Translations under genes and position numbers: made by a program
In this document: positions 43,789 to 61,565 of the stretch, one piece after another
How positions within the stretch are numbered: position 1 is the first letter of the stretch
How the letters are laid out: every line of letters starts with the position of its first letter
Origin: Thiomonas intermedia
GTDB taxonomy: Bacteria > Pseudomonadota > Gammaproteobacteria > Burkholderiales > Burkholderiaceae_C
NCBI GenBank assembly: GCA_022730375.1
Contig: DZDA01000001.1
Coordinates: 68,471-132,470 of the forward strand
Direction of reading: 5' to 3'
Length of the DNA stretch: 64,000 nucleotides
The notes under the pieces: model-generated
Databases searched by the model: none
What the model was told of the DNA's origin: nothing
Seen by the model: the letters and a program-made list of their open reading frames with translations, nothing else

Positions 43789-45144
43789 ATGACAGAACGA
43801 CAGATTGTGTCTGGCGATACAACCGCACCGCATGCAGTGGATGTGCTGGTCATTGGCGGTGGTCCGGCAGGCACCACGGCAGCTACCTTGCTGCAGGAGC
43901 GCGGCTTCCGCGTCACTCTGCTCGAAAAGGATCATCATCCCCGATTTCACATCGGCGAGTCCTTGCTGCCGGCCAATCTGCCCTTGCTCGAGAAGTTGGG
44001 GGTGGCCGATGCGGTGAAAGCGATGGCGATGGAAAAATGGGGGGCGGAATTCGTCTCGCCTTGGCATGAACAAGAGACGCAGATGTTTGCGTTCGCAGAC
44101 GCCTGGGACAAGTCGATGCCCATGGCCTACCAGGTCCGGCGCTCGGAATTTGATGCGCTCTTGATGCGAAATACCGCAAGCAAGGGAGTGGACGTGCAGG
44201 AGGGCTGCAAGGTCGATGACGTGCAGTTCCTGCCGGACGAACAAGGCGCGATCATCTCGGCGCAGCATGAGGATGGTCATCGCGCAAGCTGGGCTGCGCG
44301 CTATGTGGTCGACGCTTCTGGACGCGACACGTTTTTTGGCAGCCGCTTCAAGACGAAGAAGCGCAATCCCAAACACAACAGCGCGGCGATCTACGCCCAC
44401 TTCACCGGGGCGAAACGCCTGGAAGGTCAGGCGCAAGGCAACATCACCATTTTCTGGTTTGATCATGGCTGGTTCTGGTTCATTCCCCTGGCGGACGGCG
44501 CGACCAGCGTGGGCGCGGTGGTGTGGCCCTACTACCTCAAGACCCGCAACAAGCCGCTGGACGAATTTTTCGCCGACACCATCGCTATGTCGCCCCAGTT
44601 GAGCGAGCGGCTGGCAGGTGCCACGCGGGTGTCCGAGGTTGAGGCCACGGGGAATTTTTCTTATAGCTGCGGCCATACGTACGGCCCGAACTACCTGTTG
44701 ATCGGGGATGCCTACGCGTTCATCGATCCGGTTTTTTCATCCGGGGTGATGCTGGCGATGCAGGGCGGATTTTTCGCCGCAGACGCCCTTGAAACCTGCC
44801 TGCGTCAACCTGCGCGCGCCGCCAAGGCGCTGGCCCGTTTCGACCGTGAAATGCAGCGTGGCCCGCGCGAGTTCTCCTGGTTCATCTACCGCGTCAACCA
44901 CCCGACCATGCGAGACATGTTCATGGGGCCGCGCAACGTCCTGCGGGTGAAGGAGGCTCTGCTGTCGGTGCTGGCGGGCGACATATTCGGCAAAACCCCG
45001 ATCTGGACTTCGGTGCGTATCCTGAAGGGCATTTTCTACGCCGCTTCGCTCAGGCAGTTTGGCCGCAGTTGGGCGGCGCGGGTGCAACGCAAGCGCCAGA
45101 TCCAGATTCACGACGACCCCCAGCCCGAGACTCAGCACGGCTGA
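43789..45144 (+). CDS. Flavin-dependent halogenase-like FAD oxidoreductase
   Basis: 451 aa; VLVIGGGPAGTTAATLL, FHIGESLLPANLPLLEKLG, WFWFIP (WxWxIP, 44470-44487), FIDPVFSSG (FxxPxxSxG, 44719-44745). Confidence 0.85.
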   Translation: MTERQIVSGDTTAPHAVDVLVIGGGPAGTTAATLLQERGFRVTLLEKDHHPRFHIGESLLPANLPLLEKLGVADAVKAMAMEKWGAEFVSPWHEQETQMFAFADAWDKSMPMAYQVRRSEFDALLMRNTASKGVDVQEGCKVDDVQFLPDEQGAIISAQHEDGHRASWAARYVVDASGRDTFFGSRFKTKKRNPKHNSAAIYAHFTGAKRLEGQAQGNITIFWFDHGWFWFIPLADGATSVGAVVWPYYLKTRNKPLDEFFADTIAMSPQLSERLAGATRVSEVEATGNFSYSCGHTYGPNYLLIGDAYAFIDPVFSSGVMLAMQGGFFAADALETCLRQPARAAKALARFDREMQRGPREFSWFIYRVNHPTMRDMFMGPRNVLRVKEALLSVLAGDIFGKTPIWTSVRILKGIFYAASLRQFGRSWAARVQRKRQIQIHDDPQPETQHG

Positions 45145-45158
45145 CGCCGCCCTTGTTC

Positions 45159-46190
45159 ATGCTGCAACTGCTGCACCTGCCTGCAAGCGCGCTGGCCCAA
45201 GTCGCGCGCGACGCGTCTTCTCCCCTGCTCGGCGCCGCCTGTTTTGGCGCAGGCGCAGGCCCGATTCCGCACCCTCTTTTTCCGCTGGCCAGCGTTCAGG
45301 TTGAGCCGCTGGCGGGCGAACCCGCCTTGTGCGAAGCCTGGTCGACACAAGGGCCGCTGCAGCAGGGCAAGACGGGGCGCGTACATTGGTGCAGTAACGG
45401 CGACGTGTTATTCGCCGTGCTGCAGGTGGCAGAGGCCGTGACCGCAGACGCGGAGGGCGTGCCGCCGTTGCAGGCGGCGTCGCGCGCGGCCTATGCCGAT
45501 CTGTTCACCGCGCTTGATGCGTTGGGCTACCCGCATTTGTTGCGGGTCTGGAATCATGTGCCCGATATCAATGGCGAGAGCTCAGGCGTCGAGCGCTATC
45601 GGCTGTTCAACATTGGCAGGCAAGACGCCTTTCTGGCCCACGGGCGTACTGTGGCCGGCACCAGCGTGCCCGCGGCCAGCGCCCTGGGTGCATCGGCCAA
45701 CGCGCCGCTGCTGGTGTATTGCATCGCCGCGCGCCAGCCCGCTGCGGCGATTGAAAATCCGCGGCAGCTCAGCGCCTATCACTATCCGCAAGACTATGGG
45801 CCGCGCAGCCCCACGTTTTCGCGCGCCAGTCTGGCGACTTTCGGACAGCAGCATCTGCTCTTCATCTCGGGCACCGCCAGCATCGTGGGACATCGCACCC
45901 TGCACGCCGAGGACGTGGCGGAGCAGACGCGTGAGACCTTGCGCAATGTCGAGGCTGTGTTGCAGCAGGCGCATGCGAAGGGCGTTGCGGGCATGCGTCT
46001 TGCAAACCTGCACTACAAGGTCTATGTGCGGCACCCGGCAGACTGGCCGGTCATTCGCGCCGAACTGCAGCGTGCGGCAGGCGCAGCGGTGCACGCCATC
46101 GCCTTGCAGGCTGACGTCTGCCGCTCCGATCTGCTGGTGGAAATCGAGGCGACCGGCTTGCAGACCACAAATCAGGATCTTCGCGCATGA
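45159..46190 (+). CDS. Chorismatase (XanB2/FkbO/Hyg5-like)
   Basis: Start re-set to 45159 (MLQLLHLPASALAQVARD); LRVWNHVPDINGESSGVERYRLFNIGRQDAF, FSRASLATFGQQHLLFISGTASIVGHRTLH, C-terminal CRSDLLVEIEATG. Confidence 0.85.
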   Translation: MLQLLHLPASALAQVARDASSPLLGAACFGAGAGPIPHPLFPLASVQVEPLAGEPALCEAWSTQGPLQQGKTGRVHWCSNGDVLFAVLQVAEAVTADAEGVPPLQAASRAAYADLFTALDALGYPHLLRVWNHVPDINGESSGVERYRLFNIGRQDAFLAHGRTVAGTSVPAASALGASANAPLLVYCIAARQPAAAIENPRQLSAYHYPQDYGPRSPTFSRASLATFGQQHLLFISGTASIVGHRTLHAEDVAEQTRETLRNVEAVLQQAHAKGVAGMRLANLHYKVYVRHPADWPVIRAELQRAAGAAVHAIALQADVCRSDLLVEIEATGLQTTNQDLRA

Positions 46191-47026
46191 GGCATCGTTT
46201 GCTTGTCACCGCAGCCATCGCGCTGGCGTTTTCTACCTTGCCTGGAGCGGCTTCGGCGGAGCAGAAACCGCTGTGGGAATTCGGCCTTGGGGTAGGCGGG
46301 GTGAGCTTCCCGGCCTATCCGGGCTCGGATGCACAGCGCAACTATGCGGTGCCAGTGCCGTATATCGTGTACCGCGGCGAGTTCATCAAGGCAGACCGCA
46401 ACGGGGTGCAGGCGCGCCTGTTCGATACTGATCGGGTCGAGTCCTATTTCAGCCTCAGTGCCTCGCCGCCTGTCAACAGTGCGTCCAATGGGGCGCGTAG
46501 CGGCATGCCCGATCTCAAGCCCATGGTCGAGTTCGGCCCCGCGCTCGAAGTGCATCTGTGGCAATCCGCCGCGCAGCGCATGCGGCTCGATTTCCGCATG
46601 CCATTGCGCACCGCCTACACCGTGCAGACGCGACCGCAGCAGGTGGGATGGGTGCTGGCTCCGGTGCTCAATCTCGACATGGGCGGCGTGGAGGGGCTGC
46701 CGGGCTGGAACCTGGGCATGCAGACCGGCCCGGTGTTCGCCGACCGACAGTACAACCAGACGTTCTATGGTGTTGACAGCGCTTACGCCACTGCAGCACG
46801 CCCCGCCTACGCGGCGCGCGGCGGCTATTCGGGAAGCCAGTTCACAGTCGCCTTGAGCAAACGATTTTCTGGTTTCTGGGTGGGCGCCTTTGCGCGCTAC
46901 GACAATCTGGACGGGGCCGTCTTTGCCGACAGTCCGCTGATGCGTCGCAGCCAGAACCTGTCGCTCGGCTTCGGCATCGCGTGGATACTCGGCCAGTCAT
47001 CCAGAATGGTGGACAGTCATGAATGA
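46187..47026 (+). CDS. MipA/OmpV family outer-membrane protein
   Basis: 279 aa with signal peptide; LWEFGLGVGGVSFPAYPGSDAQRNYAVPVPYIVYRGEFIKADRNGVQARLFDTDRVE. Confidence 0.9.
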   Translation: MRHRLLVTAAIALAFSTLPGAASAEQKPLWEFGLGVGGVSFPAYPGSDAQRNYAVPVPYIVYRGEFIKADRNGVQARLFDTDRVESYFSLSASPPVNSASNGARSGMPDLKPMVEFGPALEVHLWQSAAQRMRLDFRMPLRTAYTVQTRPQQVGWVLAPVLNLDMGGVEGLPGWNLGMQTGPVFADRQYNQTFYGVDSAYATAARPAYAARGGYSGSQFTVALSKRFSGFWVGAFARYDNLDGAVFADSPLMRRSQNLSLGFGIAWILGQSSRMVDSHE

Positions 47027-47828
47027 GGATGTGATCGTGCCGGAGACCGTCTCAGAGTCAACATGGCGCAATGGCTGGGACATGGCGCGGGTGTTTTTCG
47101 GGCTCGGCATCTTGGGCGTGATGGGGCTGCTTTGGTCTCTGCTGGCCATCCCGCTGTACTACCTGCTGCCGCGCCGAGCGGGCCTCTTGGTCGGACGCTG
47201 GCTGATTCATTCGGCGTTCCGCGTGTATTTGCGTATTTTGGCGCTGATCGGCGCCTGCAATTTCGACCTGTCGGCGCTCGACGCCCTGCGCGGCCAGCCG
47301 CCCATGATCATCGCACCCAATCATCCTTCGCTGATCGACGCCGTGCTGGTGATCTCGCGCCTGCCCGGACTTGCCTGCATCATGAAGGCCAGCATTGTGG
47401 ACAACCCCTCGCTGGGCGCGGGCGCGCGGCTTGCGCGCTACATCCGCAACGACGCGTTGCGCAGCATGATCCACCTCGCCGTCGCCGATCTGAGATCGGG
47501 GCATCATCTGCTGCTGTTTCCCGAAGGCACGCGCAGTACGGGCCGACCCATCGGAACCCTGCGCGGCAGCGTGGCGCTCATCGCCAAACAGGCGCGGGTG
47601 CCGGTACAGACCGTGTTCATCGAGACCGATTCGCCTTTCCTCGCCAAAGGCTGGCCTCTGACGCGCCGACCGCAATTGCCCATCACCTACCGGGTGCGCC
47701 TGGGCAAGCGCTTCGATCCGCCGCAGGATGCGCAGGCCTTCATCGCCGAGCTCGACGCCTATTACCGTGACGCGCTGGCGGGCGCCACACTACCGGATCC
47801 TCTCGTAGCGCCCTCCGCGGATGACTGA
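47019..47828 (+). CDS. 1-acylglycerol-3-phosphate O-acyltransferase (PlsC-like)
   Basis: 269 aa; IAPNHPSLIDAVLVISRLPG (NHx4D variant) and LLLFPEGTRSTG. Confidence 0.9.
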   Translation: MNEDVIVPETVSESTWRNGWDMARVFFGLGILGVMGLLWSLLAIPLYYLLPRRAGLLVGRWLIHSAFRVYLRILALIGACNFDLSALDALRGQPPMIIAPNHPSLIDAVLVISRLPGLACIMKASIVDNPSLGAGARLARYIRNDALRSMIHLAVADLRSGHHLLLFPEGTRSTGRPIGTLRGSVALIAKQARVPVQTVFIETDSPFLAKGWPLTRRPQLPITYRVRLGKRFDPPQDAQAFIAELDAYYRDALAGATLPDPLVAPSADD

Positions 47829-48621
47829 GTCCCACGTTGCCGCAGGCGGCCCGCCTCCCAGCGCGACGCACCTCGTCCTGATCCCTAGCTATGACCCGGG
47901 CGCCCAGGTCTATGACACGGTGCGTGCGGCGCGCGCGCAGTGGGCGCCGGTATGGGTGGTTGTCGACGGCAGCACTGACGGCACGGCGCAAGGGCTGCGC
48001 GAGATGGCCGACGAAGACCCCCAACTGCGTGTCTTCGTGCTGCCGCAAAACAGTGGCAAGGGCGCTGCGGTGCTGCACGGCCTTGACGCCGCTGCGGCTG
48101 CGGGCTACAGCCACGTGCTGACCATGGACTCCGACGGCCAACATCCGGCCGAACGCATCCCCGCCTTCATGGCCGCTTCACAGCGGCAGCCGCAGGCCAT
48201 GGTGCTCGGCGTGCCGGTGTTCGACGCCAACGCGCCCAGCCTGCGCGTGCAGGGCCGCAAGGTCTCCAACGCCTGGGCCCATCTCGAAACCCTGTGGGCC
48301 GGCATCGGCGATTCACTCTACGGCTTTCGTGTCTACCCGGTGGCGCCGCTGCGCGCGGTGATGCAGCGCCAGCACTGGATGCGTCGCTTCGATTTCGACC
48401 CCGAAGCCGTGGTGCGTCTGAGCTGGCGCGGCGTGCCTGCCGTCAACCTGCCTGCTCCGGTGCGCTACCTGCGCCCCGAGGAAGGCGGCGTGTCGCACTT
48501 CAGTTATCTGCGCGACAACGTCCTGCTGACCTGGATGCACACTCGCCTGTTCCTCGGCTTCGTACTTCGGCTGCCCCTGCTGGTATGGCGACGCGTGCGC
48601 GGAACACCGGGCGTTGGCTGA
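47821..48621 (+). CDS. Glycosyltransferase family 2
   Basis: 266 aa; HLVLIPSYDPGAQVYDTV...WVVVDGSTDGTAQGL...VLTMDSDGQHPAERIPAF. Confidence 0.9.
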   Translation: MTESHVAAGGPPPSATHLVLIPSYDPGAQVYDTVRAARAQWAPVWVVVDGSTDGTAQGLREMADEDPQLRVFVLPQNSGKGAAVLHGLDAAAAAGYSHVLTMDSDGQHPAERIPAFMAASQRQPQAMVLGVPVFDANAPSLRVQGRKVSNAWAHLETLWAGIGDSLYGFRVYPVAPLRAVMQRQHWMRRFDFDPEAVVRLSWRGVPAVNLPAPVRYLRPEEGGVSHFSYLRDNVLLTWMHTRLFLGFVLRLPLLVWRRVRGTPGVG

Positions 48622-49932
48622 TCAGGCTTTGGCCGAGTCGGCGCAGCCTTGCTCGGCGGGCTCTGCGGTCGCGAGACGCGGCAGCCACAGCCGCAGCATC
48701 GGCGCGGTGATCACGGTGCTGAAAATCGCCATCAGCACCAACATGGTGAATACATTGCGCGAGATGGCGCCCAGGTCGTAGCCCACGTTGATGACGATGA
48801 GTTCCATCAGCGCACGGGTGTTCATCAGGGCGCCCATTACACCGGCTTGGGGACGGCTCATACCGCACCAGCGTGCGGCCAGATAAGCGCCGCCGAACTT
48901 GCCCAGCGTGGCCAGCATGATGAGCAGCGCGCACCAGGCCCACAAGGCACTGCTGGACAGACCGCCGACGTCGGTGCGCAGGCCGGTGTAGGTGAAAAAG
49001 ATCGGCAGGAAAAACACCAGGACGAAGGGACTGACCTGTGTTTTCCAGGCCTGAACCAGCCGGGCCTGGTCGTGCAGGATGACGCCCATCATGAAGCCGC
49101 CGAAGATGGCGAAAATACCGATTTGATAGGTGCACATGGCCGAGATGAATATGGCCGCCAGCACCACGCCCAGCAGATTGGGCGACAGATCGCCGCCATC
49201 CGCCTGAAAGTGACGGATGGCGCGGTGCATCAGCGGCCGCACGACAAACAGCCAGAGCAGCGCAAAGCCGAGCACCATCAGCACTTTCAGGCCGAAGGCG
49301 GCCGGCTCGAAGTGGCTCGCCGCCAAGGTGGTGACCAGGGCCAGCAGCAGCCAGCCGACCACGTCGTTGAAGGCGGCGGCGCTGATGGCAATGACGCCCA
49401 GCCGGGTGCGGTGCAGGTCGAAGTCCACCAGGATGCGGCCCAGGATGGGCAGGGCGGTGATGGAGAACGCCGTGGCGATGAACAGTGCGCTGACCTCGCC
49501 CCCTGACTGGGGCGACAGCGTGGCGGCGCTGAAGGCGCCGAACCCCAGGCCGAGTGCGAAGGGCGCCAGCATGCTGGCGATGCCGATCCACAGCACGGCA
49601 CGGCGGTTGCTGCGCACGCCGAGGTGCGCGAAGTCGAACTCCAGGCCGATCTGGAACATCAGCAGGATCAGGCCGATCTGCGACAGGATTTGCAGCGGCG
49701 TTCCCGAGGCCGAATGAAAGACGACATGGAACACATCGGGAGCAAGCAGGCCGAACAGGGAAGGCCCGAGCAGGATGCCGATCACGATCTCGCCCACAGC
49801 GGCCGTCTGTCCAAGCCGCCGTGCGAGCACGCCGCCGACGCGTCCGGCCAGCACGATGACCGTGAGCTGCAGCAGGGTGAAGAACAGCAGGGTCTCGGCG
49901 GCGTGGACAGAGAGGGGCGTGTTGACGCTCAT
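48622..49932 (-). CDS. Cation:proton antiporter (CPA2/Kef-type)
   Basis: About 436 aa; GVLARRLGQTAAVGEIVIGILLGPSLFG, LFIATAFSITALPILGRILVDFDLHRTRLGVIAISAAAFNDVVGW. Confidence 0.9.
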   Translation of the reverse strand: MSVNTPLSVHAAETLLFFTLLQLTVIVLAGRVGGVLARRLGQTAAVGEIVIGILLGPSLFGLLAPDVFHVVFHSASGTPLQILSQIGLILLMFQIGLEFDFAHLGVRSNRRAVLWIGIASMLAPFALGLGFGAFSAATLSPQSGGEVSALFIATAFSITALPILGRILVDFDLHRTRLGVIAISAAAFNDVVGWLLLALVTTLAASHFEPAAFGLKVLMVLGFALLWLFVVRPLMHRAIRHFQADGGDLSPNLLGVVLAAIFISAMCTYQIGIFAIFGGFMMGVILHDQARLVQAWKTQVSPFVLVFFLPIFFTYTGLRTDVGGLSSSALWAWCALLIMLATLGKFGGAYLAARWCGMSRPQAGVMGALMNTRALMELIVINVGYDLGAISRNVFTMLVLMAIFSTVITAPMLRLWLPRLATAEPAEQGCADSAKA

Positions 49933-49963
49933 GGGCAATGGCGGCGGGCAAGGGGGATGGGGA

Positions 49964-50704
49964 TCAGATCATGCCGCCATTGATGGAAATGATCTGGCCG
50001 CTGATGTAGGCCGCTCGATCGGACGCAAGAAAGCCGACGAGATCGGCCACTTCCTCGGGCTGGCCGGCGCGCTTCATCGGTACGAGCCGCGCCACGGCGT
50101 CGGCATCGAAGCTGTCCGCGCTCATCGGCGTGGCGATGATGCCGGGAGCCACCGCGTTCACGGTGATGCCGCGGCTGGCCACTTCCAGCGCCAGGGATTT
50201 GGTGGCGGCGTGCAGCGCACCCTTGGCGGCGGCATAGTTCACCTGGCCACGGTTGCCCGTGATGGCGGCTACCGAGGTGATGTTGATGACACGCCCCCAA
50301 CGGGTGCGAATCATGGGCAGCATCAACGGCTGGGTGAGGTGGAAAAAGCTGTTGAGGTTGACGTCGATGACCCGTTGCCATTGGTCGGCGCGCATGCCGG
50401 GAAACACCGCGTCATCATGCAGGCCGGCGTTGTTGACCAGCACCTGGATCGGTCCGCTGGCCAAGAGCTCCTCGGCGGCTGCCGCGGTGGCCGCGGGGTC
50501 GCTCAGGTCGAAGGCCAGTGCCTGCGCGATGTGGCCCTGGCCGCGCAGTTCTGCGGCCAGAGACTGGGCGCGCAGCACGCCGCTGTTGGCGTGAATGAAT
50601 ACGGCAAAACCATCGGCGGCTAGGCGACGGCAGATCGCGGCGCCTATGCCGCCGCTGCCGCCGGTGACCAAGGCGCGACGTGCTTGTGGCGTGGTGTCAT
50701 TCAT
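49964..50704 (-). CDS. 3-oxoacyl-ACP reductase (FabG/ApeQ-like)
   Basis: Start re-set to 50704 (MNDTTPQARRALVTGGSGGIGAAICRRLA); SDR motifs NNAG and YAAAKGAL. Confidence 0.92.
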   Translation of the reverse strand: MNDTTPQARRALVTGGSGGIGAAICRRLAADGFAVFIHANSGVLRAQSLAAELRGQGHIAQALAFDLSDPAATAAAAEELLASGPIQVLVNNAGLHDDAVFPGMRADQWQRVIDVNLNSFFHLTQPLMLPMIRTRWGRVINITSVAAITGNRGQVNYAAAKGALHAATKSLALEVASRGITVNAVAPGIIATPMSADSFDADAVARLVPMKRAGQPEEVADLVGFLASDRAAYISGQIISINGGMI

Positions 50705-51173
50705 CGGTTTGATCACCGTCGTGGCCCAACAGGACCGACGCGCGGCCTTCCAGCAGCAGTCGGTCTGCAGCGTGCACGCTGAACTGGTAGAGCAGCATGC
50801 TGGCATCGCCGCTGATGCGCTCGGCGTTCACCGTGAGATCGGCGACCAAGTCGTCGATGCGGGTGGCATGCAGTTGTACCGCGCGCACGCTGACCAGCAT
50901 GCCGGGTCGCGGCGGCGCTTCCAGCGGCGCGGCCAAGGCGCCGTGCACTGCCATGGCCTGCGCGGCGTATTCGATCCCGCAAGCTGCTCCGAGCCGGTCG
51001 AACTGACGCAAGGGGTTGTCCGCGTCGCGGTGGCTGCTGGCGCTGCAGACGATGCGCTGCGCGTCCCACGCCAGCACCCGGTCGAGCAGACACATGGCGC
51101 CCTGATGCGGAATGTGCGCGGCGATCCACGCGTGATCGCGTGCGCTCTCGTCAGGTTGGGCGGGGTTCAGCAT
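50697..51173 (-). CDS. Hotdog-fold 3-hydroxyacyl-ACP dehydratase-like protein (ApeP-like)
   Basis: 158 aa; AHIPHQGAMCLLDRVLAWDAQRIVCSASSHRDADNPLRQFDRLGAACGIEYAAQAMAVHGAL. Confidence 0.85.
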   Translation of the reverse strand: MLNPAQPDESARDHAWIAAHIPHQGAMCLLDRVLAWDAQRIVCSASSHRDADNPLRQFDRLGAACGIEYAAQAMAVHGALAAPLEAPPRPGMLVSVRAVQLHATRIDDLVADLTVNAERISGDASMLLYQFSVHAADRLLLEGRASVLLGHDGDQTDE

Positions 51174-51985
51174 GGAGCGAGGCGCACTTCAAGTTGTTGA
51201 TCGGGGAGCTGGTCAAGCACCACGGTATCGCTCTGTCTTTTGCACAGGGCTTGCAGTAACGGTAGGCAGCGGGCTGCAGGGATGGCGCCACGCAGGGTTT
51301 CCAGCCCGGCATCGGCCAGCCGGTTTGCGGGGGCGCGGGTGAAGGGTAGACTCGGATCCAGGCTGAGCCGGGCCAGGGTGTGCGCCCCAGCCTCTGGCGC
51401 GAGGGCCAGTGCAACGCCAAAGCTGTCGGGGATGGGGCGGGCGCTGTGCAGCGGCTCGGGATAGCAGGTGTCGTAGGCCAGCAGCAGCACGGGCTGGCGC
51501 AGAAGCGTGACTTGCACCAGTGCTTCGAGCAGCCCGGCAGCAAAGCTGGCATCGAACGCGCACAGCACCGCGGATGGGGCCTTGGCCCCGGTGGCAATGC
51601 CCCAATAGCCTGAGGCTGCGTTGTGCACCGAGTTGTGAAAGCGGGTCGGCGAAATCAGCCGGTCGCTTGATGCGAGGGCGTCGCAGATCTCGTGGCAGTT
51701 CCGTCCGTCGCCACTGGAGGAAGAAAACACGGTGGCCAGATCAGCGGCCTGCATTCCGGCGGCCGCCACGGCCTCCAGTCCCGTGGCCAGGGTGAGCTTG
51801 ATGACGGCGGTAGCGCGGCGGCGTTCGGCCGGCGGCAGAATTTGCGGCGTCGGCAGCACGGTCGGCTCCGGCACATAGGGCGCTTCGTGCATCAACACGG
51901 CGCGCGCCTGCGGCCAGTCGCGTAAGCCGGGGCCGAGCAGGCCGATGCCGTCCAAGCAGGCGCTGAGCAAGGTGGGCGGGCTCAT
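51167..51985 (-). CDS. Beta-ketoacyl synthase-like protein, chain-length-factor type (ApeC-like)
   Basis: Start re-set to 51985 (MSPPTLLSACLDGIGLLGPGL); KS N-terminal fold, but the nucleophile segment reads VLCAFDASFAAGLLEA with no TACSSS Cys. Confidence 0.75.
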   Translation of the reverse strand: MSPPTLLSACLDGIGLLGPGLRDWPQARAVLMHEAPYVPEPTVLPTPQILPPAERRRATAVIKLTLATGLEAVAAAGMQAADLATVFSSSSGDGRNCHEICDALASSDRLISPTRFHNSVHNAASGYWGIATGAKAPSAVLCAFDASFAAGLLEALVQVTLLRQPVLLLAYDTCYPEPLHSARPIPDSFGVALALAPEAGAHTLARLSLDPSLPFTRAPANRLADAGLETLRGAIPAARCLPLLQALCKRQSDTVVLDQLPDQQLEVRLAPC

Positions 51986-53229
51986 TGGGCGTCTCCCCGT
52001 GCCAGCACCAGACTGCAATTGGTGCCGCCGAACCCGAAGGAGTTGCTCAGCACCCGGCGCGGCGCAAAAGGGCGTGCTTCCAGCAGGTAGTTCAGCGGAG
52101 CGACGCTGGCGATGGCCGGGTCGAGCGCAGTGGCGCCCACGCCGCCGGGCAGCACGCCGTGGCGCAGCGCGAGCAGGGAGAACACGGCTTCCAAGCCGCC
52201 AGCGGCGCCTAGCGTATGGCCGGTGGCGCCCTTGGTTGAGCTGCAGGGCGTTGAGGGGCCGAACAGCGCGCCCACTGCGCGGCCTTCTGCGCTGTCGTTG
52301 CTGGGCGTGGCGGTGCCGTGCAGATTGATGTAGTCGATCTCGGCTGCCTGCAGACCGGCTTGCGCCAGCGCCGCCTGCATGGCGCTGCGAGCGCCCAGGC
52401 CGTCCGGGTGCGGCGATGACATGTGATACGCGTCACTCGACTCTCCGACGCCCAGCAGCAGCACGGCGTCGTCCGACGGACGTGCAGGGGCGGCTTCAAG
52501 CAGCACGAAGGCGGCGGCCTCTCCGATGGACAGGCCGTGACGCTGCGCGTCAAACGGGCGGCAGGGCTGGGTGGAGAGCAGTTCCAGCGAATTGAACCCA
52601 TACAGCGTGGTCAGGCACAGGCTGTCGACGCCACCCACCAGGGCGCAGTCGATCAGTCCGGCGGCGATCATGCGCTGCGCGTTGCCAAAGACCTTGGCGC
52701 TGCTGGAGCACGCGGACGACACCACCATGGCCGGGCCGAGCAGGCCGAAGCGGGTGCGCACATAGGCCGCGAGTGAGAAGGTGTTGTGCGTCTGGGCATA
52801 GTGATAACTGGCGGGCAGTGCGCCGCTGGCATCGCGCTGGCGATAGGCCAGTTCCGTCTGCAGAATGCCCGAAGTGCTGGTGCCGAGCATTACCCCCACA
52901 CGCCGCGCGCCGTGGCGGGAAATGGCGGCTTGCACCGCCTGAAGGAAGTCGTCCTGCTGCAAGGCGAGTTCGGCGAGGCGATTGTTGCGGCAGTCAAATG
53001 CAGCCAGTTCTGGCGGCAGGCGCACGTCGTCCACACCCGCGACTTCGCCGATCCAGGTGGGCAGCTCCACGGTGTCGAAATCACAGGGCGAGAGGCCGCT
53101 GCGGCCGTTGCGCAGGGCCTGGAGTTGCGCATCCAGCCCGGCGCCCAGGCAACTGGTGGCGGTGGCGGCGCCGAGTTGCAGGTGCGGCAACGTGAGGGGA
53201 GAAAGAGGCATATGGTGAGGAGAGGTCAA
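51982..53229 (-). CDS. Beta-ketoacyl-ACP synthase (KS, ApeO-like)
   Basis: 415 aa; active site SSACSSSAKVF, INLHGTATPSND, KGATGHTLGAAGG (Cys-His-His). Start may be the ATG at 53211. Confidence 0.93.
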   Translation of the reverse strand: MTSPHHMPLSPLTLPHLQLGAATATSCLGAGLDAQLQALRNGRSGLSPCDFDTVELPTWIGEVAGVDDVRLPPELAAFDCRNNRLAELALQQDDFLQAVQAAISRHGARRVGVMLGTSTSGILQTELAYRQRDASGALPASYHYAQTHNTFSLAAYVRTRFGLLGPAMVVSSACSSSAKVFGNAQRMIAAGLIDCALVGGVDSLCLTTLYGFNSLELLSTQPCRPFDAQRHGLSIGEAAAFVLLEAAPARPSDDAVLLLGVGESSDAYHMSSPHPDGLGARSAMQAALAQAGLQAAEIDYINLHGTATPSNDSAEGRAVGALFGPSTPCSSTKGATGHTLGAAGGLEAVFSLLALRHGVLPGGVGATALDPAIASVAPLNYLLEARPFAPRRVLSNSFGFGGTNCSLVLARGDAQ

Positions 53230-53237
53230 GAGGTGGT

Positions 53238-53987
53238 TCAGGGCGTGCCGACGGTCGCCACGAGCAACACATTAGCAAATGGCGTGCCCTGGCTCATGGG
53301 CATGGGCTTGACCGTGAAACCGAGTGACTGCAAGACTTGCATCCATTCTTCCAGGGGGCGGCAATACAGATGTGCCGTGCGGTGGCCGCGAGCGCGGGTC
53401 ACGATGAAGTCCACCCAGTTGCTGATGCGAAAGGGCAGTCCGGCTGCGGCGTCGCCTACCCGTAGCAGCAGCACGCCACCGGGAGTCAAGGCTTCGCGCA
53501 CGCGGCGCAACACCGCATCCTGCGCGGGCCTGTCGATGTAGTGCAGCACGTCGAGAATGACCACGGCATCGGCGTTGCCGAAGGGGGCGCTGCGGATGTC
53601 TCCCTGCTCGAAACGGGCGGCGGTGCCAAGGGCGGCGTTGGCGCGCGAGACATCGCTGGCCATCAATTCAACGCCGCGCAGTGCGGTGGTTTGGGGCGGG
53701 GCGGGCCAGGCTTGCGGCCAGTTGCCCGCCGCATGGGCGCGCTGCGCCGCAAGCAGCCAGGACGCCAGCAGCCCCTGGCCACAACCAAGATCGAGCACGC
53801 GGGCGTGTGCGGGGATGAGGCCACATTGCAGCAGTTTGACAAAGGCTGGATCGCCCGCCAGTTTGCCGCGTGCAAAATGCCAGGCGAAGCGCCCGGTCGG
53901 CCGGTAAGGCGCGGCAGCGGCATCGACTAGGCCAGAGAGCCAGGCGGCGGTGGCGTGTGAGGATGCAGGGGAGGCGTTTGCGCTCAT
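53238..53987 (-). CDS. Class I SAM-dependent methyltransferase
   Basis: 249 aa; ARVLDLGCGQGLLASWLL (motif I), VVILDVLHYIDRPAQDAVLRRVREALTPGGVLLLRVGD. Confidence 0.9.
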   Translation of the reverse strand: MSANASPASSHATAAWLSGLVDAAAAPYRPTGRFAWHFARGKLAGDPAFVKLLQCGLIPAHARVLDLGCGQGLLASWLLAAQRAHAAGNWPQAWPAPPQTTALRGVELMASDVSRANAALGTAARFEQGDIRSAPFGNADAVVILDVLHYIDRPAQDAVLRRVREALTPGGVLLLRVGDAAAGLPFRISNWVDFIVTRARGHRTAHLYCRPLEEWMQVLQSLGFTVKPMPMSQGTPFANVLLVATVGTP

Positions 53988-54841
53988 GTGGGACGGGCCG
54001 GGGTGGAGGGTGCTGCGCAGGCAGCGTGCAGGGTGACTGCCGTCAGGCCTGCGGTGTGGATGACGTGGAGCAAGGCAGGCAGGACCTCGAGGATGACCGG
54101 ACGGCCCTGCGCGGTTCGCGCGGCGTGGCCGTCATGCAGGAGCAAGATGTCGCCAGGGCCCAGCTTGCGCAGCAGACGATGCAGCACCACGGCAGGGCGA
54201 GTTTCGCGGGTATCGAAGCCTCGGCGGGTCCAACTGGCAAGCAGGAGCTGATGCCGCGCCAGGATCGGCCCGAGGAAAGGATTGCGCAGTCCGGCGGGGG
54301 CGCGGAAAAAGCGCGGCGTGACGCCGGTGATATGACGCAGGCTGACTTGTGCGGCCTGCAATTCGCGGGAGTAGCCACGCGGCCCCAGCAGCGAGAAGCT
54401 GTGGCGATGGCGGTTGCTGTGATTCTCGACCGCATGGCCGCGCTGCACGATGGCGCGGCACAGCTCGGGGTGGGCTCGGGCGCGTTCGGCGATGCAGAAG
54501 AACGTGGCGTGCGCGCCGTGGGCGTCGAGCAGGTCGAGCACGGCGGGGGTGATCAAGGGATCGGGACCATCGTCGATGGTGAGCGCCACTTCGCCGCGTC
54601 GTGCGGCGGCTTCGGGCAGGCGCGTGAGGTTGGGGCCCAGCGCCTGGCTGCGCGGCCACAGGCCGGCCGCAGTGAGCACGGCGTGGTTGAGCACCAGCGC
54701 CGTCAGCGCCCAGGGCCAGAGGTCAAACTGCCACAGCACAGCGCCCAGCGCCAGGGCATGCAGGGCGATGGATGCCAGGATCAGGGGCGTGGGCCGCCAA
54801 GGCGGAACGGGCGGCAGGACGGTGACGCAATCGTCAGACAT
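53984..54841 (-). CDS. Polysaccharide deacetylase (NodB-type)
   Basis: 285 aa; LTIDDGPDPLITPAVLDLLDAHGAHATFFCIAERA, ENHSNRHRHSF, FFRAPAGLRNPF. Confidence 0.93.
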   Translation of the reverse strand: MSDDCVTVLPPVPPWRPTPLILASIALHALALGAVLWQFDLWPWALTALVLNHAVLTAAGLWPRSQALGPNLTRLPEAAARRGEVALTIDDGPDPLITPAVLDLLDAHGAHATFFCIAERARAHPELCRAIVQRGHAVENHSNRHRHSFSLLGPRGYSRELQAAQVSLRHITGVTPRFFRAPAGLRNPFLGPILARHQLLLASWTRRGFDTRETRPAVVLHRLLRKLGPGDILLLHDGHAARTAQGRPVILEVLPALLHVIHTAGLTAVTLHAACAAPSTPARPT

Positions 54842-54844
54842 GGT

Positions 54845-57277
54845 TCAGGATCCTGGCGAGGCCGCGGTGGTCTTGTCAGGAGCCGAGAGCATGGCCGAAA
54901 AAAGCAGGGCGAGCAGGGCACCGGGCGCGACGGTTGCTCCCATGGCCTGCAATACGGGCACGCCCGACAGCAGCAAAGGGCCGAACCCCGCCACCGTGGT
55001 GAGATTGGCGAACAGTAAAGAGGCGAGGGTGGACGGTTCGATGCCGCCGACCTCGTCCTGTCCCTGGTTGAAGAACAGGGCGTAGTTCGAGCCCACGGCG
55101 ACGATCAACATCAGGCCCACCAGATGCAGCAGGGTGAGCTGAACGCCCGACAGCAGCAGCCCGGCCACGACCACGAGCACGGCGGACAGGAGCGGTGCGA
55201 GCACCCGTGCGGTGCGCGCTGCCGAGCGCAGTACGACCAGCAGCAACACTGCGATGGCGACAATGCCAGCGAGCGACAGCTCCGACGCCGTGCGTAGATA
55301 GCCGTCGTACAAGCCGGTGCTTGCGGCGCCCAGATTGATGACCAGTGCGCCGCTGCCGTGCAGTGCGGCCTGCACGCGGGTGTCGTCAATGCTGGCGCGA
55401 GGGGGCGCTCGCAAGGGCAGCAAGGCGGTCCAGCCTCCCGTAGCTTGGTGCAGCAACATGCCGTCGAGTGCCAGGGAGAAGGCGGTATGCGCCAGGTCGG
55501 GCCGGGTCAGCAGCGGGAGATGGCGCGCCGCCTCGACATCGTGCAGGAAGGGGGCAAATGCTGCAGGCCTGACAGGCAGGCCGTGCAAGGCGGCATCCAG
55601 CCGGGCTTGCAGCACGGCGGCGTCAGGCAGGGCGGACTGCCGGGCGCGCTGCGTGGCTAGGCTGGGCAGATAACGCGCCGGGCTGTCAAAACCGGCGATC
55701 ACGCCTTGTTGCTGGAGGGCTTGCAGCCGGGGTGCGATGCGCTCTGCCGCGGCGAGTGCGGCCTCGAGGCTGGGGGCGTGAACGGCCACCAGGTCAACGG
55801 CATCGGGCGCGCCCAGTTGTTCGCGCAGTTGCGAGTTGAGCGCAAGGGCTTGCGGGGTGATGGGGCTGAGTGCGGAGAGTTGCGTGTTCCAGAGGGTGTG
55901 GCGATGGGCCAGCACCACGGCGATCGCACCGATTGCAAGCAGCACGACCAGCCAGCGCAGGCCGCGCAGGTGCGTAACCAGTAGTTTGAGCTGCTGTCCG
56001 GTGCGGCTGAGGTCGCGCACGGCGAAGTGGGTCGGCAGGAGTTGTGGCAGCACGAAGCGCGTGACCAGCGCCGCCGCCGCCAGACCGGCTATGGAGTAAG
56101 CCCCAAGTTGGGCCAGCCCGGGAAAGTCCGAGAGCAGCAGGGTGGCAAAACCGACCACCGAAGTCAGCATGCCTAGGCGGATGGTGGGCCAGAAGCGGTG
56201 TAGCCAGTCGCTGCGCGCGGTGTCTGGTGCCGTACCTGGCGTCCCGGCGCGCCTGGACTGGACAAATAAATAAATGGAGTAGTCCACCGCTTCGCCGATC
56301 AGGGTGGTGCCAAACCCGAGGGTGATGCCCTGGACCACGCCGAATCCCAGACTGACGGCGGTGATGCCGGCCAATACGCCGGACAACACGGGCAGCAGCC
56401 CGAGCAGCAGCACTGGCAGTGAGCGATAGACCAGCAGCAATAGGCCGACGATGAGCACGCCGCCGATGAGCGACACACGCTCGACCGCATGCCTGATGGT
56501 GGCGCGCGCTTGCACCGCAAAGACCGCTGTGCCGCTGATCACCAGACTGGCGCTGCGCGCTGCGGGCGAGCCTTGTTCCTGTTCGATCTGTTGCTGCGCG
56601 GCGGCGTAGGCGGCGCGCACTGCGTCGATGGCGGCCTGCTGGCCATCGGTGTCCGTGCCTGCGGCGCGCGTCTGCACCAGCAGCAAGGCGCGGGGCATGT
56701 CGGGCGCAGCCCAGACGCCATCGTCCTTGTGCGGCTGTGCGTCTGCTGCCATGTTGTCCAGCAATTGCAGCAAGGCGCCTGTGGGGTCGGCGGGGAACAG
56801 TGATTTGAGCGTGCCTCCCAGGGGCGAGGCGAGGCTGTCAATGCTGGCCGCAATGGCTTGGTGCAGGCCGGAGGCTGAAAAGGTCTGCGGTGTGGTGGCG
56901 GGGCTGAGCAGGTATCGGTACTTGAACAGCAGGGCTTCGTCAGCGTGCGCATCGACCGGTTCGCCATTGTTGACCGAGACGAACGCTGCCTGCTGGCGCA
57001 GCCGCGCCGCCAGTGCGCGCGACAAGGCAGCGCGGGTACGCGCATCACTGCCGTCGATTCCCACCAGAATGAGGCGAGAGATCAGGCCGTCGCGCAACTG
57101 ATCGACCAGCATCTGCTCCTGGGCCGTGGGCTTGCTCGGCAGGAAGGCCGACATATCGGCGGTATAGCGGCTTTGCAGGATGACGGCCAGACAGGCGACG
57201 AGTGCGCCCAGCCATAGCAGAACCGGGGTGAAGCGCCGCCGCATCATCCGTGCACGCCCAACAAAGTAAGGTTCCAC
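54845..57277 (-). CDS. MMPL/RND-family exporter
   Basis: 810 aa; two membrane halves with an N-terminal periplasmic loop; LGFGTTLIGEAVDYSIYLFVQSR and VGLMLIVAVGSNYALFFNQGQD. Confidence 0.9.
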   Translation of the reverse strand: MEPYFVGRARMMRRRFTPVLLWLGALVACLAVILQSRYTADMSAFLPSKPTAQEQMLVDQLRDGLISRLILVGIDGSDARTRAALSRALAARLRQQAAFVSVNNGEPVDAHADEALLFKYRYLLSPATTPQTFSASGLHQAIAASIDSLASPLGGTLKSLFPADPTGALLQLLDNMAADAQPHKDDGVWAAPDMPRALLLVQTRAAGTDTDGQQAAIDAVRAAYAAAQQQIEQEQGSPAARSASLVISGTAVFAVQARATIRHAVERVSLIGGVLIVGLLLLVYRSLPVLLLGLLPVLSGVLAGITAVSLGFGVVQGITLGFGTTLIGEAVDYSIYLFVQSRRAGTPGTAPDTARSDWLHRFWPTIRLGMLTSVVGFATLLLSDFPGLAQLGAYSIAGLAAAALVTRFVLPQLLPTHFAVRDLSRTGQQLKLLVTHLRGLRWLVVLLAIGAIAVVLAHRHTLWNTQLSALSPITPQALALNSQLREQLGAPDAVDLVAVHAPSLEAALAAAERIAPRLQALQQQGVIAGFDSPARYLPSLATQRARQSALPDAAVLQARLDAALHGLPVRPAAFAPFLHDVEAARHLPLLTRPDLAHTAFSLALDGMLLHQATGGWTALLPLRAPPRASIDDTRVQAALHGSGALVINLGAASTGLYDGYLRTASELSLAGIVAIAVLLLVVLRSAARTARVLAPLLSAVLVVVAGLLLSGVQLTLLHLVGLMLIVAVGSNYALFFNQGQDEVGGIEPSTLASLLFANLTTVAGFGPLLLSGVPVLQAMGATVAPGALLALLFSAMLSAPDKTTAASPGS

Positions 57278-57284
57278 CCGGCGG

Positions 57285-57878
57285 TCATTGCACGGGTTGC
57301 TCGTGAATGGTCATCAGTGAGCTGTCGCCGTCGGCTTGCAGCACGGCGATCGTCTGCACCTGACCCTGCTTGCCCCCGATCTGGATGCGGCGCACCCGCG
57401 CACGCGCCTTCGCGTCCACGGGCGACAGGGTGAGTTCCCAGCTTGCCGCAGTGCCATCGAGGGTGGTGGTGTAGTCGCGTTGCAGCGCCTTGCGGTCGCC
57501 GTTGAGGGTGGCCCGGATGCTGTTGATCAACACGGCAACGTCTGGATGGTCGCGCAGGTCAAACTGATGGCTGCGGCCATCCATTTCGAGGGTCACCTGA
57601 TTGGCCTGCAGGATCAGGGTTTGCCGCTTGGGTTTGAGGGTGCGCATCTCAAGAAAGTCGGGTGCGGCAAATCGCAATTCTCCGGACGACTCGATGGGTG
57701 CGTCGAGCATCGCCAGGGTCTTGGTCTCGACAAAGGTGGCGCGGTTTGCCGGATGACGGGCCAGAGCCTGCATCAGGGCGTCGAGCGTCCAGTCGGCCGC
57801 CTGGGACAGCGTTGGAACGAGCAGCGCGCAGGAGAACAGCAGGGCGCGCAGGGCGAATCGGCGTGTGGGCAGTGTCAT
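57285..57878 (-). CDS. LolA-like outer-membrane lipoprotein carrier
   Basis: 197 aa; signal peptide; LMQALARHPANRATFVETKTLAMLDAPIESSGELRFAAPDFLEMRTLKPKRQTLILQANQVTLEMDG. Confidence 0.85.
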   Translation of the reverse strand: MTLPTRRFALRALLFSCALLVPTLSQAADWTLDALMQALARHPANRATFVETKTLAMLDAPIESSGELRFAAPDFLEMRTLKPKRQTLILQANQVTLEMDGRSHQFDLRDHPDVAVLINSIRATLNGDRKALQRDYTTTLDGTAASWELTLSPVDAKARARVRRIQIGGKQGQVQTIAVLQADGDSSLMTIHEQPVQ

Positions 57879-58864
57879 GGCTCGGTCGGCCCGGCTGCTT
57901 CCGCTTCGGGGCCCTTCCAGAAGTCGTAGAAATTGAACCAGTTGTAGGGTGCATCGGCGCAGCGCATCTCAAGGCGTTGCACATAGCTTGCCAGCGCGGC
58001 GTCAATGGCGACGGCGCGCTGGCTGCGGTGGATGCTGGTGAAATCGGCCAGGCGCTCGAAGTGCACGTCGTAACGGTTGCCGCCGCGGTAGATGCCGAAC
58101 ATCAGCACCACCGGGCGCTTGAGCAGGGCGGCGATGCGCAACGGTCCGCGCGGCCAGGGCGCGGGCTGGCCGAAAAAGGGCAGAGTCGCCGTGCTGTCAT
58201 CGTGCAGGGACCGGTCGGCAAGAAAGCCGACTACGCCGCCCGCGTCGAGCCGCTCCTGCAATCTCAGCATGGAGTCGAGCCGTCCCAGGGGGATGATGTC
58301 CTGCGCGGCAGCGGGGTTGATGGCGTGCAGCGCGTCGTTGATCTTGCGCGCATTGTCGGGATACATCAGCAACGAAACGCGCGGCGCCGCATCGCGCCGG
58401 GCAAGCGCCCGCAACACCTCGAAACTGCCGAAATGCGCCCCCATGAGAAACGCGCCTCGACCCTGTGCCAGAACGGCGTCCAGAACGTCTGCGCCTTGCA
58501 CGCGCAGATCGAACAGATCCCATCGATCATTGAGCAGATAGACACGGTCGTGAATGGTGGAGGCAAAGCTGAACACATGGCGGTAGCCATCGGCCCAGTT
58601 CGCATCGCGTCCGAGCACGCGCTTGAGGTACTGGCGCGAGGCGCGCCTCGCGCCAGGTGCAAACAGCACAAAATACACTGCAATTCCCGCAAGCACGACA
58701 CGCCCGATACGCCGCCCGAGCCGCAACGAAATCCAGGTCATGACACGCAGAATATGGTGGTTGCTGCGCTCCTCCGTCTGCGCCCATTCGGCGGTGGAGA
58801 CGGACGCGGTGGCGGCAATCTCCGCCGACCGTTCCGGAGCCTGGGCGGGGAAAGGCGAGGTCAT
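57875..58864 (-). CDS. LpxL/HtrB-type acyltransferase
   Basis: Start re-set to 58864 (MTSPFPAQAPERSAEIAATASVSTAEWAQ); GAFLMGAHFGSFEVLRALAR (Hx4-type), VVGFLADRS. Confidence 0.85.
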   Translation of the reverse strand: MTSPFPAQAPERSAEIAATASVSTAEWAQTEERSNHHILRVMTWISLRLGRRIGRVVLAGIAVYFVLFAPGARRASRQYLKRVLGRDANWADGYRHVFSFASTIHDRVYLLNDRWDLFDLRVQGADVLDAVLAQGRGAFLMGAHFGSFEVLRALARRDAAPRVSLLMYPDNARKINDALHAINPAAAQDIIPLGRLDSMLRLQERLDAGGVVGFLADRSLHDDSTATLPFFGQPAPWPRGPLRIAALLKRPVVLMFGIYRGGNRYDVHFERLADFTSIHRSQRAVAIDAALASYVQRLEMRCADAPYNWFNFYDFWKGPEAEAAGPTEP

Positions 58865-59196
58865 GCGACCACAGGCGCAGTGGGCTGCGCTGCATTGCAC
58901 TGAACCAGTCCTGAGGCGGCCAGGCGCGCCTCACGACCGGCGTGCAGACTGAAGCGCACGCCGCCTTGCGCGTCCGGGGTATGACGGAGTTGCAGGGCTT
59001 CTCCAGGCTTGACGGCGCTGACAAACTTTGTGGCCGCAATGCGGCAGCTGCTGGCGCACAGGCCGTGGCTGACGCAGATATGGCGTAGCGCAGCGTCGAG
59101 CAGCAGCACGCCGGGCACGATGGGGTGTGCGGGAAAATGTCCGGCGAAAGCGGGATGCTCTGCGTCGTACGTCGGCAGGTTTTCGATGGGGGTCAT
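58861..59196 (-). CDS. Hotdog 3-hydroxyacyl-ACP dehydratase-like (FabZ/ApeI-like)
   Basis: Start re-set to 59196; HPAFAGHFPAHPIVPGVLLLDAALRHI, KFVSAVKPGEALQL. Confidence 0.88.
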   Translation of the reverse strand: MTPIENLPTYDAEHPAFAGHFPAHPIVPGVLLLDAALRHICVSHGLCASSCRIAATKFVSAVKPGEALQLRHTPDAQGGVRFSLHAGREARLAASGLVQCNAAQPTAPVVA

Positions 59197-60545
59197 GAAC
59201 GCGCCTCCGCCTGGCTGCCCCATTCTGCCGCCAAGGCCACCAGCGCGGAGCGCGGCAGCTTGCCCGTGGCGTTACGCGGAAGAGCGTCCATCAGCACAAG
59301 CGGGCGGGGCAGGAAGGCGGGATCGACGCGTTGTCGCAGCGCGTCGATCAGCGCGTGACGCGGTAGCGTCGGAGCGACGGCGAAAGCCATGAGCCTGGGT
59401 ACGGCGGCGCTGCGGTCATCGGGCATGTGAAACGCGCCGTCGTCCACCCCCGGAATGGACAGCAACTGGTGATTGAGGTGGGCTAGGGAACTGCGCTTGC
59501 CAGCGATGTTGACCATGTCCGCATGGCGCCCGATCAGGCGGAAATTCTGGCTGTCGATACGGTCGACGTCGTCGCTCAGCGGCACTGGCGCAGCCAGGTG
59601 CCCGCCCTGAGCCTGCAACGTGCCGTCGGCGGCCGCGGTTAGCAAGACCTCGGGGAGCAGTGTCCAGACATCGGTCTGCACGGTGCGGCGGCTGGCAATT
59701 TGACCGGTCTCGGTAGACCCGTAGATTTCGAGCAATGGCGCACCGAGATGCTGCTCTACAGCGCACGCGAGGTCATGATCGAGCGGCGCAGTGGCACACA
59801 GCACCAACGCAATGGGCGGCAGAGTCACGCCCGAGGCCAGCAAGGCGCGCAGATGCACCGGGGTGGACACCAGCAGGCGCGGCGTCGGCACATCGGCCAG
59901 GGCGGTGGCAATATCCGCCGGATAGAACGGATGTGCCGCGCTGAGCACGGCGCCGCCCTGCAGCGCCAGCAGCAAGGTGGACTCGAAGCCATACATATGC
60001 TGCGGCGGCACCGTGCCCACGAGATGCAAGGGGCCGCAGTCGGCGGCCTGGCGGAGTCTGGCGGCCCCAGCCCGCACGCAATGCGCCAACGCGCCCCAGG
60101 TTTTGCCGTGGGCGAGCGGTGTGCCGGTGGAGCCGGAGGTGAAGACTTGTGCGACGCACTGGTCTGCCGGAATCAGGGGCATGGCAAAGCGGGCGCCAGA
60201 AACCGCGTTGCGCCGTACCGGATACTGCAGGAAAGGCAGGTCGAGCTCCCCTGGAGCATCACCCAAATGGAGCAGATCAGGAGCAAGGGTGCGCAGTTGC
60301 GCCACGGTGTCGGGTGCGCGGGAAGAGGGCAACAGGCTGGTGCGGCCACTCACCACGGCAGCTGCGAAGCCGACGCAGAACTCGTAACGGTCTGAGCAGG
60401 TATTGAGCACATGCCGGGCATCGGGCAGGGCGACAGCAAGGTGATCGACGTCGGCCAGAAACTCCTGGACGAGCACGGGCCGTCCGCGACGCCAGGCGAA
60501 GATGGCCTCGGGGGAAGACTGCGAGAGCAGGGGCAGATGCGACAT
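59193..60545 (-). CDS. AMP-dependent acyl/aryl-ACP (CoA) ligase
   Basis: Start re-set to 60545 (MSHLPLLSQSSPEAIFAWRRG); QVFTSGSTGTPLAHGKTW, LLEIYGSTETGQIA, LPRNATGKLPRSAL. Confidence 0.9.
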   Translation of the reverse strand: MSHLPLLSQSSPEAIFAWRRGRPVLVQEFLADVDHLAVALPDARHVLNTCSDRYEFCVGFAAAVVSGRTSLLPSSRAPDTVAQLRTLAPDLLHLGDAPGELDLPFLQYPVRRNAVSGARFAMPLIPADQCVAQVFTSGSTGTPLAHGKTWGALAHCVRAGAARLRQAADCGPLHLVGTVPPQHMYGFESTLLLALQGGAVLSAAHPFYPADIATALADVPTPRLLVSTPVHLRALLASGVTLPPIALVLCATAPLDHDLACAVEQHLGAPLLEIYGSTETGQIASRRTVQTDVWTLLPEVLLTAAADGTLQAQGGHLAAPVPLSDDVDRIDSQNFRLIGRHADMVNIAGKRSSLAHLNHQLLSIPGVDDGAFHMPDDRSAAVPRLMAFAVAPTLPRHALIDALRQRVDPAFLPRPLVLMDALPRNATGKLPRSALVALAAEWGSQAEARS

Positions 60546-60567: not shown

Positions 60568-61275
60568 TTAGCGCCGATTGACGAGGACGGGCGGAGGGAC
60601 GCTGTCCGCCGTCTCGGGGACTGGGGCTTTGCGATGGGCGTTGTAGCGCAGGTAGGAGCGGAAGGCCTGGATGGGCCCTGCGCGCTCGTCTGCGGGCACG
60701 GTGCGCAGGCGCACCAGATACTCCGCAACGAACATGCCCAGCACCAGCATCGGGCTGGCGACATTGGCAAATACCGCCCAGACCGACAAGGGTGTCGTCG
60801 CAAACAGCAGTAGGGAGCTGCCGGCCATCAGGCCGAAGAACAGCGTCCAGGCCCAAGTCACGCTGCGGGTATAGCGGGTGACGAGTGCCGAAAGAGTGCC
60901 ATGCGCCAGCAGCGCAAAGCGCGTGACCAAGGGCGTTTGCCCGCCGCCCAGGGTGCGGCCAAATACCCAGGCCAGCAAGGCCATCATGCCGGCATGCTCG
61001 GCAAGGTAGGCCAGGGCGTAGTGGCGCAACAGCAGGGCGCGCTGGTCCCAGAGTATGGCAAGCAGCAGGGCAATCAGTGCGAGCAGCAGAAGACGTCGGG
61101 GCGACTGCCACGCCAGCCAGGTCAGCATGAGAAGGGAGGGGACAAATGCCACAACCGCGCCGATCGGATTGGGCTGGGGCAGGCGCGCGCCTATGAACGA
61201 CATCACCGGATACGCCACGCACAAAACCCCGATCAAGGCGCCGCGCAGCACTCCGGCGCGGGAGAACGCGGTCAT
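60568..61275 (-). CDS. COG4648 family integral membrane protein
   Basis: 235 aa; AYPVMSFIGARLPQPNPIGAVVAFVPSLLMLTWLAWQSPRR; FEYLVRLRTVP near the C-terminus; COG4648 proteins are common in aryl-polyene clusters. Confidence 0.75.
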   Translation of the reverse strand: MTAFSRAGVLRGALIGVLCVAYPVMSFIGARLPQPNPIGAVVAFVPSLLMLTWLAWQSPRRLLLLALIALLLAILWDQRALLLRHYALAYLAEHAGMMALLAWVFGRTLGGGQTPLVTRFALLAHGTLSALVTRYTRSVTWAWTLFFGLMAGSSLLLFATTPLSVWAVFANVASPMLVLGMFVAEYLVRLRTVPADERAGPIQAFRSYLRYNAHRKAPVPETADSVPPPVLVNRR

Positions 61276-61565
61276 CAGGCGCTTCTCATGGCGGCGAGGT
61301 GGTCTGCCAAGCGGCGCAGCGAACTGAAGATGCGCTGATTGTCTGCGTCATCTGCACGCAACTGCACGCCATATTTCTTGGAGATCACCAGCGCGATTTC
61401 GAGAATGTCGATGGAATCCAGCCCCAGTCCATCGCCATAGAGCGGTGCATCTGGATCGATGTCAGCGGCCTCGACATCCAGACCGAGCGCGTTCACCATG
61501 ATCTGTGCCACGTCAAGAATGAAGGCGGGCTCGGCGGATTGGGATGGAACGATGGACTCGGACAT
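61275..61565 (-). CDS. Acyl carrier protein
   Basis: 96 aa; phosphopantetheine site GDGLGLDSIDILEIALVISKKYGVQL. Confidence 0.92.
   Translation of the reverse strand: MSESIVPSQSAEPAFILDVAQIMVNALGLDVEAADIDPDAPLYGDGLGLDSIDILEIALVISKKYGVQLRADDADNQRIFSSLRRLADHLAAMRSA

Follow-up and report, generated by a model that had tools for sequence, protein, structure and literature searches.

Few groups of bacterial pigments are as widespread as the aryl polyenes. One of them, xanthomonadin I, is dibrominated, its ring and its polyene chain each carrying a bromine. The best-matching characterised cluster for the locus described here is the arcuflavin cluster of Azoarcus sp. BH72, whose first gene, arcA (azo3921), is annotated as a halogenase (PMC3949708). 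The arcuflavin polyene is built from 3-hydroxybenzoate and carries a methionine-derived methyl group; MS data on the pigment of cells grown in LB, a medium with ample chloride, led to its assignment as a non-brominated aryl-heptaene of a known xanthomonadin group (PMC3949708). Arcuflavin is the sole characterised product that we found for an arcA-bearing cluster. Two Xanthomonas species have also been described as having a halogenase gene in their xanthomonadin clusters, and several genomes as having one near the ketosynthase/chain-length factor pair; the Xanthomonas pigments are mixtures of molecules with 0–2 bromine atoms (PMC3691225). None of the open-access papers found demonstrates the identity of the xanthomonadin-brominating enzyme.

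Several sequence features of flavin-dependent halogenases (FDHs) have been linked to their chemistry. A lysine is crucial for halogenation, and the WxWxIP motif has been proposed to shield the substrate from the flavin hydroperoxide, thereby favouring halogenation over hydroxylation (reviewed in PMC10696468). The Fx.Px.Sx.G motif of these enzymes has been described as well, and some halogenases strongly prefer bromide, three X. campestris FDHs having exclusively brominated their test substrates (PMC7336383).

Results

A halogenase gene in an aryl-polyene cluster

The window, which is the whole stretch of 64,000 nucleotides of Thiomonas intermedia DNA analysed here, contains a complete aryl-polyene cluster, in which several genes are named by position only (Table 1). 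Both the gene content and the arc-like order bear out the aryl-polyene setting proposed for the halogenase in the initial annotation, and many sampled loci show the same gene order. The halogenase heads a five-gene operon on the plus strand (halogenase, XanB2, MipA, acyltransferase, and glycosyltransferase), and the polyene-making genes lie on the minus strand, convergent with it. The gene had been described as leading the pigment operon; this holds for the plus-strand operon but not for the polyene-making genes on the opposite, converging strand. An AGGAA sequence stands just 5' of the halogenase ATG at 43789, and the ATG chosen as the start of XanB2 lies 15 bases past the halogenase stop codon. 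A sigma-70 scan found no promoter. Upstream of the cluster, at 33476–41769, a 2014-residue alpha-2-macroglobulin-like ORF overlaps a following penicillin-binding-protein-like ORF by 4 bases, both being identified by reading only.

Table 1. Genes of the predicted aryl-polyene cluster, with window coordinates and the basis of each assignment.
Feature	Coordinates	Strand	Basis
Flavin-dependent halogenase (ArcA/xanthomonadin-cluster type)	43789..45144	+	K83, WxWxIP 228-233, FxDPxFSSG 311-319; profile, sequence, fold, tree
XanB2/ArcB-type chorismatase (3-/4-hydroxybenzoate)	45159..46190	+	TIGR04444 231 bits, under curated cut-off 325; sequence; position
MipA/MltA-interacting-type outer membrane protein (ArcC position)	46187..47026	+	No NCBIfam match; position vs Azoarcus arcC; homology to annotated MipA/OmpV protein in locus L155
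Lysophospholipid-type acyltransferase (ArcD)	47019..47828	+	Weak TIGR00530; position
Family 2 glycosyltransferase (ArcE)	47821..48621	+	NCBIfam search; position
Cation:proton antiporter (ArcG)	48622..49938	-	TIGR00932 140 bits, under cut-off; position
3-ketoacyl-ACP reductase (ArcH)	49964..50704, start approximate	-	NF004200 356 bits, over cut-off
Dehydratase-like (ArcI position)	50697..51173	-	Synteny only
Ketosynthase chain-length factor (ArcJ)	51167..52018, true start may be internal	-	Homolog annotated chain length factor in locus L155; position
Ketosynthase (ArcK)	51982..53229	-	NF006618 547 bits, over cut-off
SAM-dependent methyltransferase (ArcM)	53238..53987	-	PF13489
Polysaccharide deacetylase family protein (ArcN)	53984..54841	-	PF01522
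MMPL-family exporter (ArcP)	54845..57277	-	PF03176
LolA-like carrier (ArcQ)	57285..57878	-	PF19574
Lipid A acyltransferase-like protein (ArcR)	57875..58900	-	PF03279
FabA/FabZ-like dehydratase (ArcS)	58861..59223	-	PF07977
AMP-ligase, starter activation (ArcT)	59193..60545, start approximate	-	PF00501
Conserved membrane-type protein (ArcU position)	60568..61275	-	No Pfam match; synteny
Acyl carrier protein (ArcV)	61275..61565	-	PF00550

Profile, fold, and tree place the protein among flavin-dependent halogenases

The halogenase ORF encodes 451 residues plus a stop codon. The window protein scored 118.9 bits with the Pfam model Trp_halogenase (cut-off 21), and its best sequence match in the PDB was CndH (3e1t, E = 5.9e-60), with FasV (8zop), Mpy16, 3nix, ChlB4, CmlS, PltA, and RadH also among the best matches. 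The motif set is therefore not a chance occurrence, given the Trp_halogenase score above the cut-off and PDB halogenases matched at E values down to 6e-60. FAD_binding_3 matched as well, and several models of related flavoproteins matched below their cut-offs: the geranylgeranyl reductase model TIGR02032 (111.9 bits; cut-off 158.8), the QhpG tryptophan dihydroxylase model NF049967 of NCBIfam (177.4 bits; cut-off 240), the CmlS model NF033113 (200.8 bits; cut-off 900), and the LodB and GoxB models.

An AlphaFold model of the halogenase, built with 60 window and locus sequences as input, reached a mean pLDDT of 92.5 and a pTM of 0.91. In a Foldseek search with this model, the best 38 rows were all halogenases or the uncharacterised 3nix, proteins of the CndH/PltA/RadH/CmlS/Bmp2 type being nearest (E = 1e-38 to 1e-31). 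Group A monooxygenases began to appear at about 1e-22, as did a geranylgeranyl-reductase-like protein, and the distant halogenase PltM scored at the same level. A maximum-likelihood tree of 91 rows, midpoint-rooted purely for display and uncertain at a few long branches, groups the window protein with 78 relatives on one side of a branch with an ultrafast bootstrap of 99 and an SH-aLRT of 93; CndH/SgcC3 and PltA/Mpy16/ChlB4 fall outside this aryl-polyene clade. Eight residues mark the clade (H196, G213, P247, R253, R274, N289, W364, and P372), each present in at least 95% of its members and in at most one of the 12 outside rows. Membership in the flavin-dependent halogenases is firm, since the Pfam score, the rival models below cut-off, the PDB matches, and the Foldseek ranking all point the same way. 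Judged by profile, sequence, fold, and tree, the ORF is thus predicted to encode a genuine halogenase of this family, in agreement with the initial annotation.

The catalytic motifs are invariant among orthologs

The translation was checked and carries each motif named earlier at the residue given for it: GGGPAG at 23–28, GESLLP at 56–61, WFWFIP at 228–233, and FIDPVFSSG at 311–319, all sequence statements on the ORF being correct. The KWGA element, suspected to hold a catalytic-type lysine, starts at K83. This residue falls in the same column as the lysine of CndH, SgcC3, PltA, Mpy16, ChlB4, FasV, and 3nix in a sequence alignment (not a superposition of structures), and it would be the catalytic lysine by this alignment with seven reference proteins and by its conservation.

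Conservation was assessed in 136 related proteins from the sampled loci, which are about 42–86% identical to the window protein. WxWxIP was invariant in all 136, K83 was found in 134 of the 134 that cover its position, FxDPxFS was conserved in 135/135 covering that stretch, and GGGPAG, the GxGxxG FAD-binding motif, was near invariant across 133. At two loci (L133 and L141) the ortholog matches contain an in-frame TAG, and these may be pseudogenes or assembly errors. To provide a control for the column of the lysine, QhpG members were also sought in 369 genomes, and none scored over the cut-off.

The halogenase accompanies the chain-length factor across genomes

Of 369 genomes sampled from the class, 35 have an ortholog, with at least 44% identity and clearly apart from other halogenase-like proteins at 35–38%. 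A chain-length factor accompanies it in every one of the 35, compared with 84/369 overall (Fisher p = 4e-26, a value that ignores relatedness), and the sampled genomes span many families. A chain-length factor was also found in 9/9 further ortholog-bearing genomes of the window's family, several of which have an unlinked halogenase. Conversely, the ortholog is missing from 25 of the 57 genomes with a strong chain-length-factor match, indicating that the halogenase is an optional tailoring step.

In several relatives belonging to the family of the window, as well as on a megaplasmid of Variovorax (loci L170–L174, L152, L153, and L159), the halogenase stands alone, with no polyene genes within about 20–25 kb. 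Two genomes (G147 and G123) have two halogenase copies each.

The starter unit and the reductase partner

XanB2 is missing from 8 of the 35 ortholog-bearing genomes, and no association between the halogenase and XanB2 was detected among genomes with a strong chain-length-factor match (27:5 vs. 18:7, p = 0.33). Both results speak against the halogenase depending strictly on 3-hydroxybenzoate made by XanB2, and this compound as the sole halogenase substrate is therefore unsupported. Many Polaromonas-type clusters (loci L035–L049 and others) keep the halogenase and have no XanB2 in the sampled flank, suggesting that the starter unit may have another source. Two alphaproteobacterial plasmids, of Azospirillum ramasamyi (L155) and Roseomonas haemaphysalidis (L157), carry an aryl-polyene cluster that includes the halogenase ortholog, while XanB2 is missing from the stretch viewed.

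As the initial annotation had stated, no flavin reductase gene adjoins the halogenase, and none was found near it in the window. A PF01613 flavin reductase encoded elsewhere was considered as the partner and rejected: none was found in the draft genome (83% complete; G000) or in a near-complete congener (G050), while the same search found the family in 13 of 14 control genomes. A different reductase family would therefore have to supply the reductant. The genome does encode FMN_red and FAD_binding_6 proteins, although nothing ties either to the halogenase, and they are a plausible, if unproven, source of FADH2.

Discussion

The protein has the family, fold, and intact invariant motifs of a flavin-dependent halogenase, and its gene is linked across genomes to aryl-polyene synthesis. 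It is probably a two-component halogenase that tailors the aryl polyene of the surrounding arcuflavin/xanthomonadin-type cluster. By analogy with the family, a separate reductase would supply FADH2, which would react with O2, and the resulting flavin hydroperoxide would convert a chloride or bromide ion bound at the FxDPxFSSG loop into HOX by oxidation. The HOX would then pass the WxWxIP strand to K83, which would present it to an electron-rich carbon of the ring or the polyene. Halogenating activity, the choice of halide, and the site of attack are predicted on this basis, and the substrate may be an ACP-bound 3-hydroxybenzoyl group, an ACP-bound polyene, or the free pigment.

Several observations stand against this reading. 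The gene is optional among genomes with a strong chain-length factor, no flavin reductase lies near it and none of the PF01613 type was found in the genome, and QhpG shows that a protein with the FDH fold and a W-x-W strand can act as a hydroxylase. The arcuflavin cluster has arcA in the equivalent position, and its pigment, from cells grown with ample chloride, is proposed to be non-brominated (PMC3949708). For this reason, the initial proposals of a halogenated pigment and of the aryl head group as the enzyme's target find no support here; the head group may be one option for the site. ArcA may have been silent or short of bromide in those cells, its product may have escaped notice, or it may perform some chemistry other than stable halogenation.

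A special case of the halogenase reading is a realistic though tentative possibility, namely that the halogenated product is conditional on bromide or growth stage, minor, or transient, most of the pigment remaining unhalogenated. It would reconcile the invariant catalytic residues with a non-brominated arcuflavin, and it is consistent with the spread of bromination states in the Xanthomonas pigment mixtures (PMC3691225) and with the strong bromide preference of some halogenases (PMC7336383). We regard as unlikely a further reading in which an aryl-polyene-specific clade, marked by residues such as H196, N289, and W364 and kept even away from the cluster, performs a cryptic, transient, or non-halogenating oxidation and leaves an unhalogenated end product.

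Somewhat more doubtful still is a flavin monooxygenase, such as a hydroxylase, that has the halogenase fold and motifs and acts on the aryl polyene without halogenating it. Peptidyl tryptophan is modified by the FDH-fold proteins QhpG, LodB, and GoxB with no halogen involved, the window protein reaches 177 bits with the QhpG model (cut-off 240), and the proposed arcuflavin structure is free of bromine. However, K83, which is not required for hydroxylation, is invariant across the orthologs, the WxWxIP motif is proposed to favour halogenation by shielding the substrate (PMC10696468), and the proposed arcuflavin polyene shows no sign of an added hydroxyl. Finally, a geranylgeranyl-reductase-like or ring-epoxidase flavoprotein mistaken for a halogenase is highly improbable: TIGR02032 (112 bits) and FAD_binding_3 do match, but the score is under the TIGR02032 cut-off, the protein has the lysine as well as WxWxIP and FxDPxFSSG, and we reject both placements on the profile cut-offs, the fold search, and the tree, which lead to halogenases.

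A clade that is tied to aryl polyenes and has an intact catalytic apparatus provides a concrete set of genes for asking which halogen is used and where. It also allows one to ask why the sole studied pigment from an arcA-bearing cluster shows no halogen.

Comparison with known systems

The order of genes in the window is that of arcA–arcE, arcG–arcK, and arcM–arcV of Azoarcus BH72. ArcA, like the window halogenase, precedes XanB2/ArcB, MipA, an acyltransferase, and a glycosyltransferase, a likeness in gene order. In Azoarcus the arc genes are spread over two loci and include arcF, whereas the window has a single locus in which no arcF was seen. The window gene may also correspond to the halogenase gene described for the Xanthomonas xanthomonadin clusters.

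Among structurally characterised or related enzymes, CndH, the chondrochloren halogenase, and SgcC3, the halogenase of the C-1027 cluster of Streptomyces globisporus, have the lysine and WxWxIP in common with the window protein, with FVDPVFSSG at the FxDPxFSSG motif, and SgcC3 is 38% identical to it; both lie outside the aryl-polyene clade, which has residues of its own such as H196, N289, and W364. PltA, Mpy16, and ChlB4 match the window protein in fold, lysine, motif order, and C-terminal helical part, but they are 27–30% identical to it in the Foldseek alignments and form a separate tree branch. QhpG (PDB 7ctq), a peptidyl tryptophan dihydroxylase, has a related FDH-like fold and the W-x-W residues, but it hydroxylates without halogenation, and the window protein falls below the cut-off of its model.

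Since the window order is that of the arcuflavin cluster, in which arcA is already annotated as a halogenase, the window gene belongs to a familiar type of aryl-polyene cluster halogenase, first members of which were described in 2013–2014 (PMC3691225, PMC3949708). What the present analysis adds to these systems is the ortholog clade, its invariant catalytic set, the breadth of the genome-level link to polyene synthesis, and a sharper question about the chemistry.
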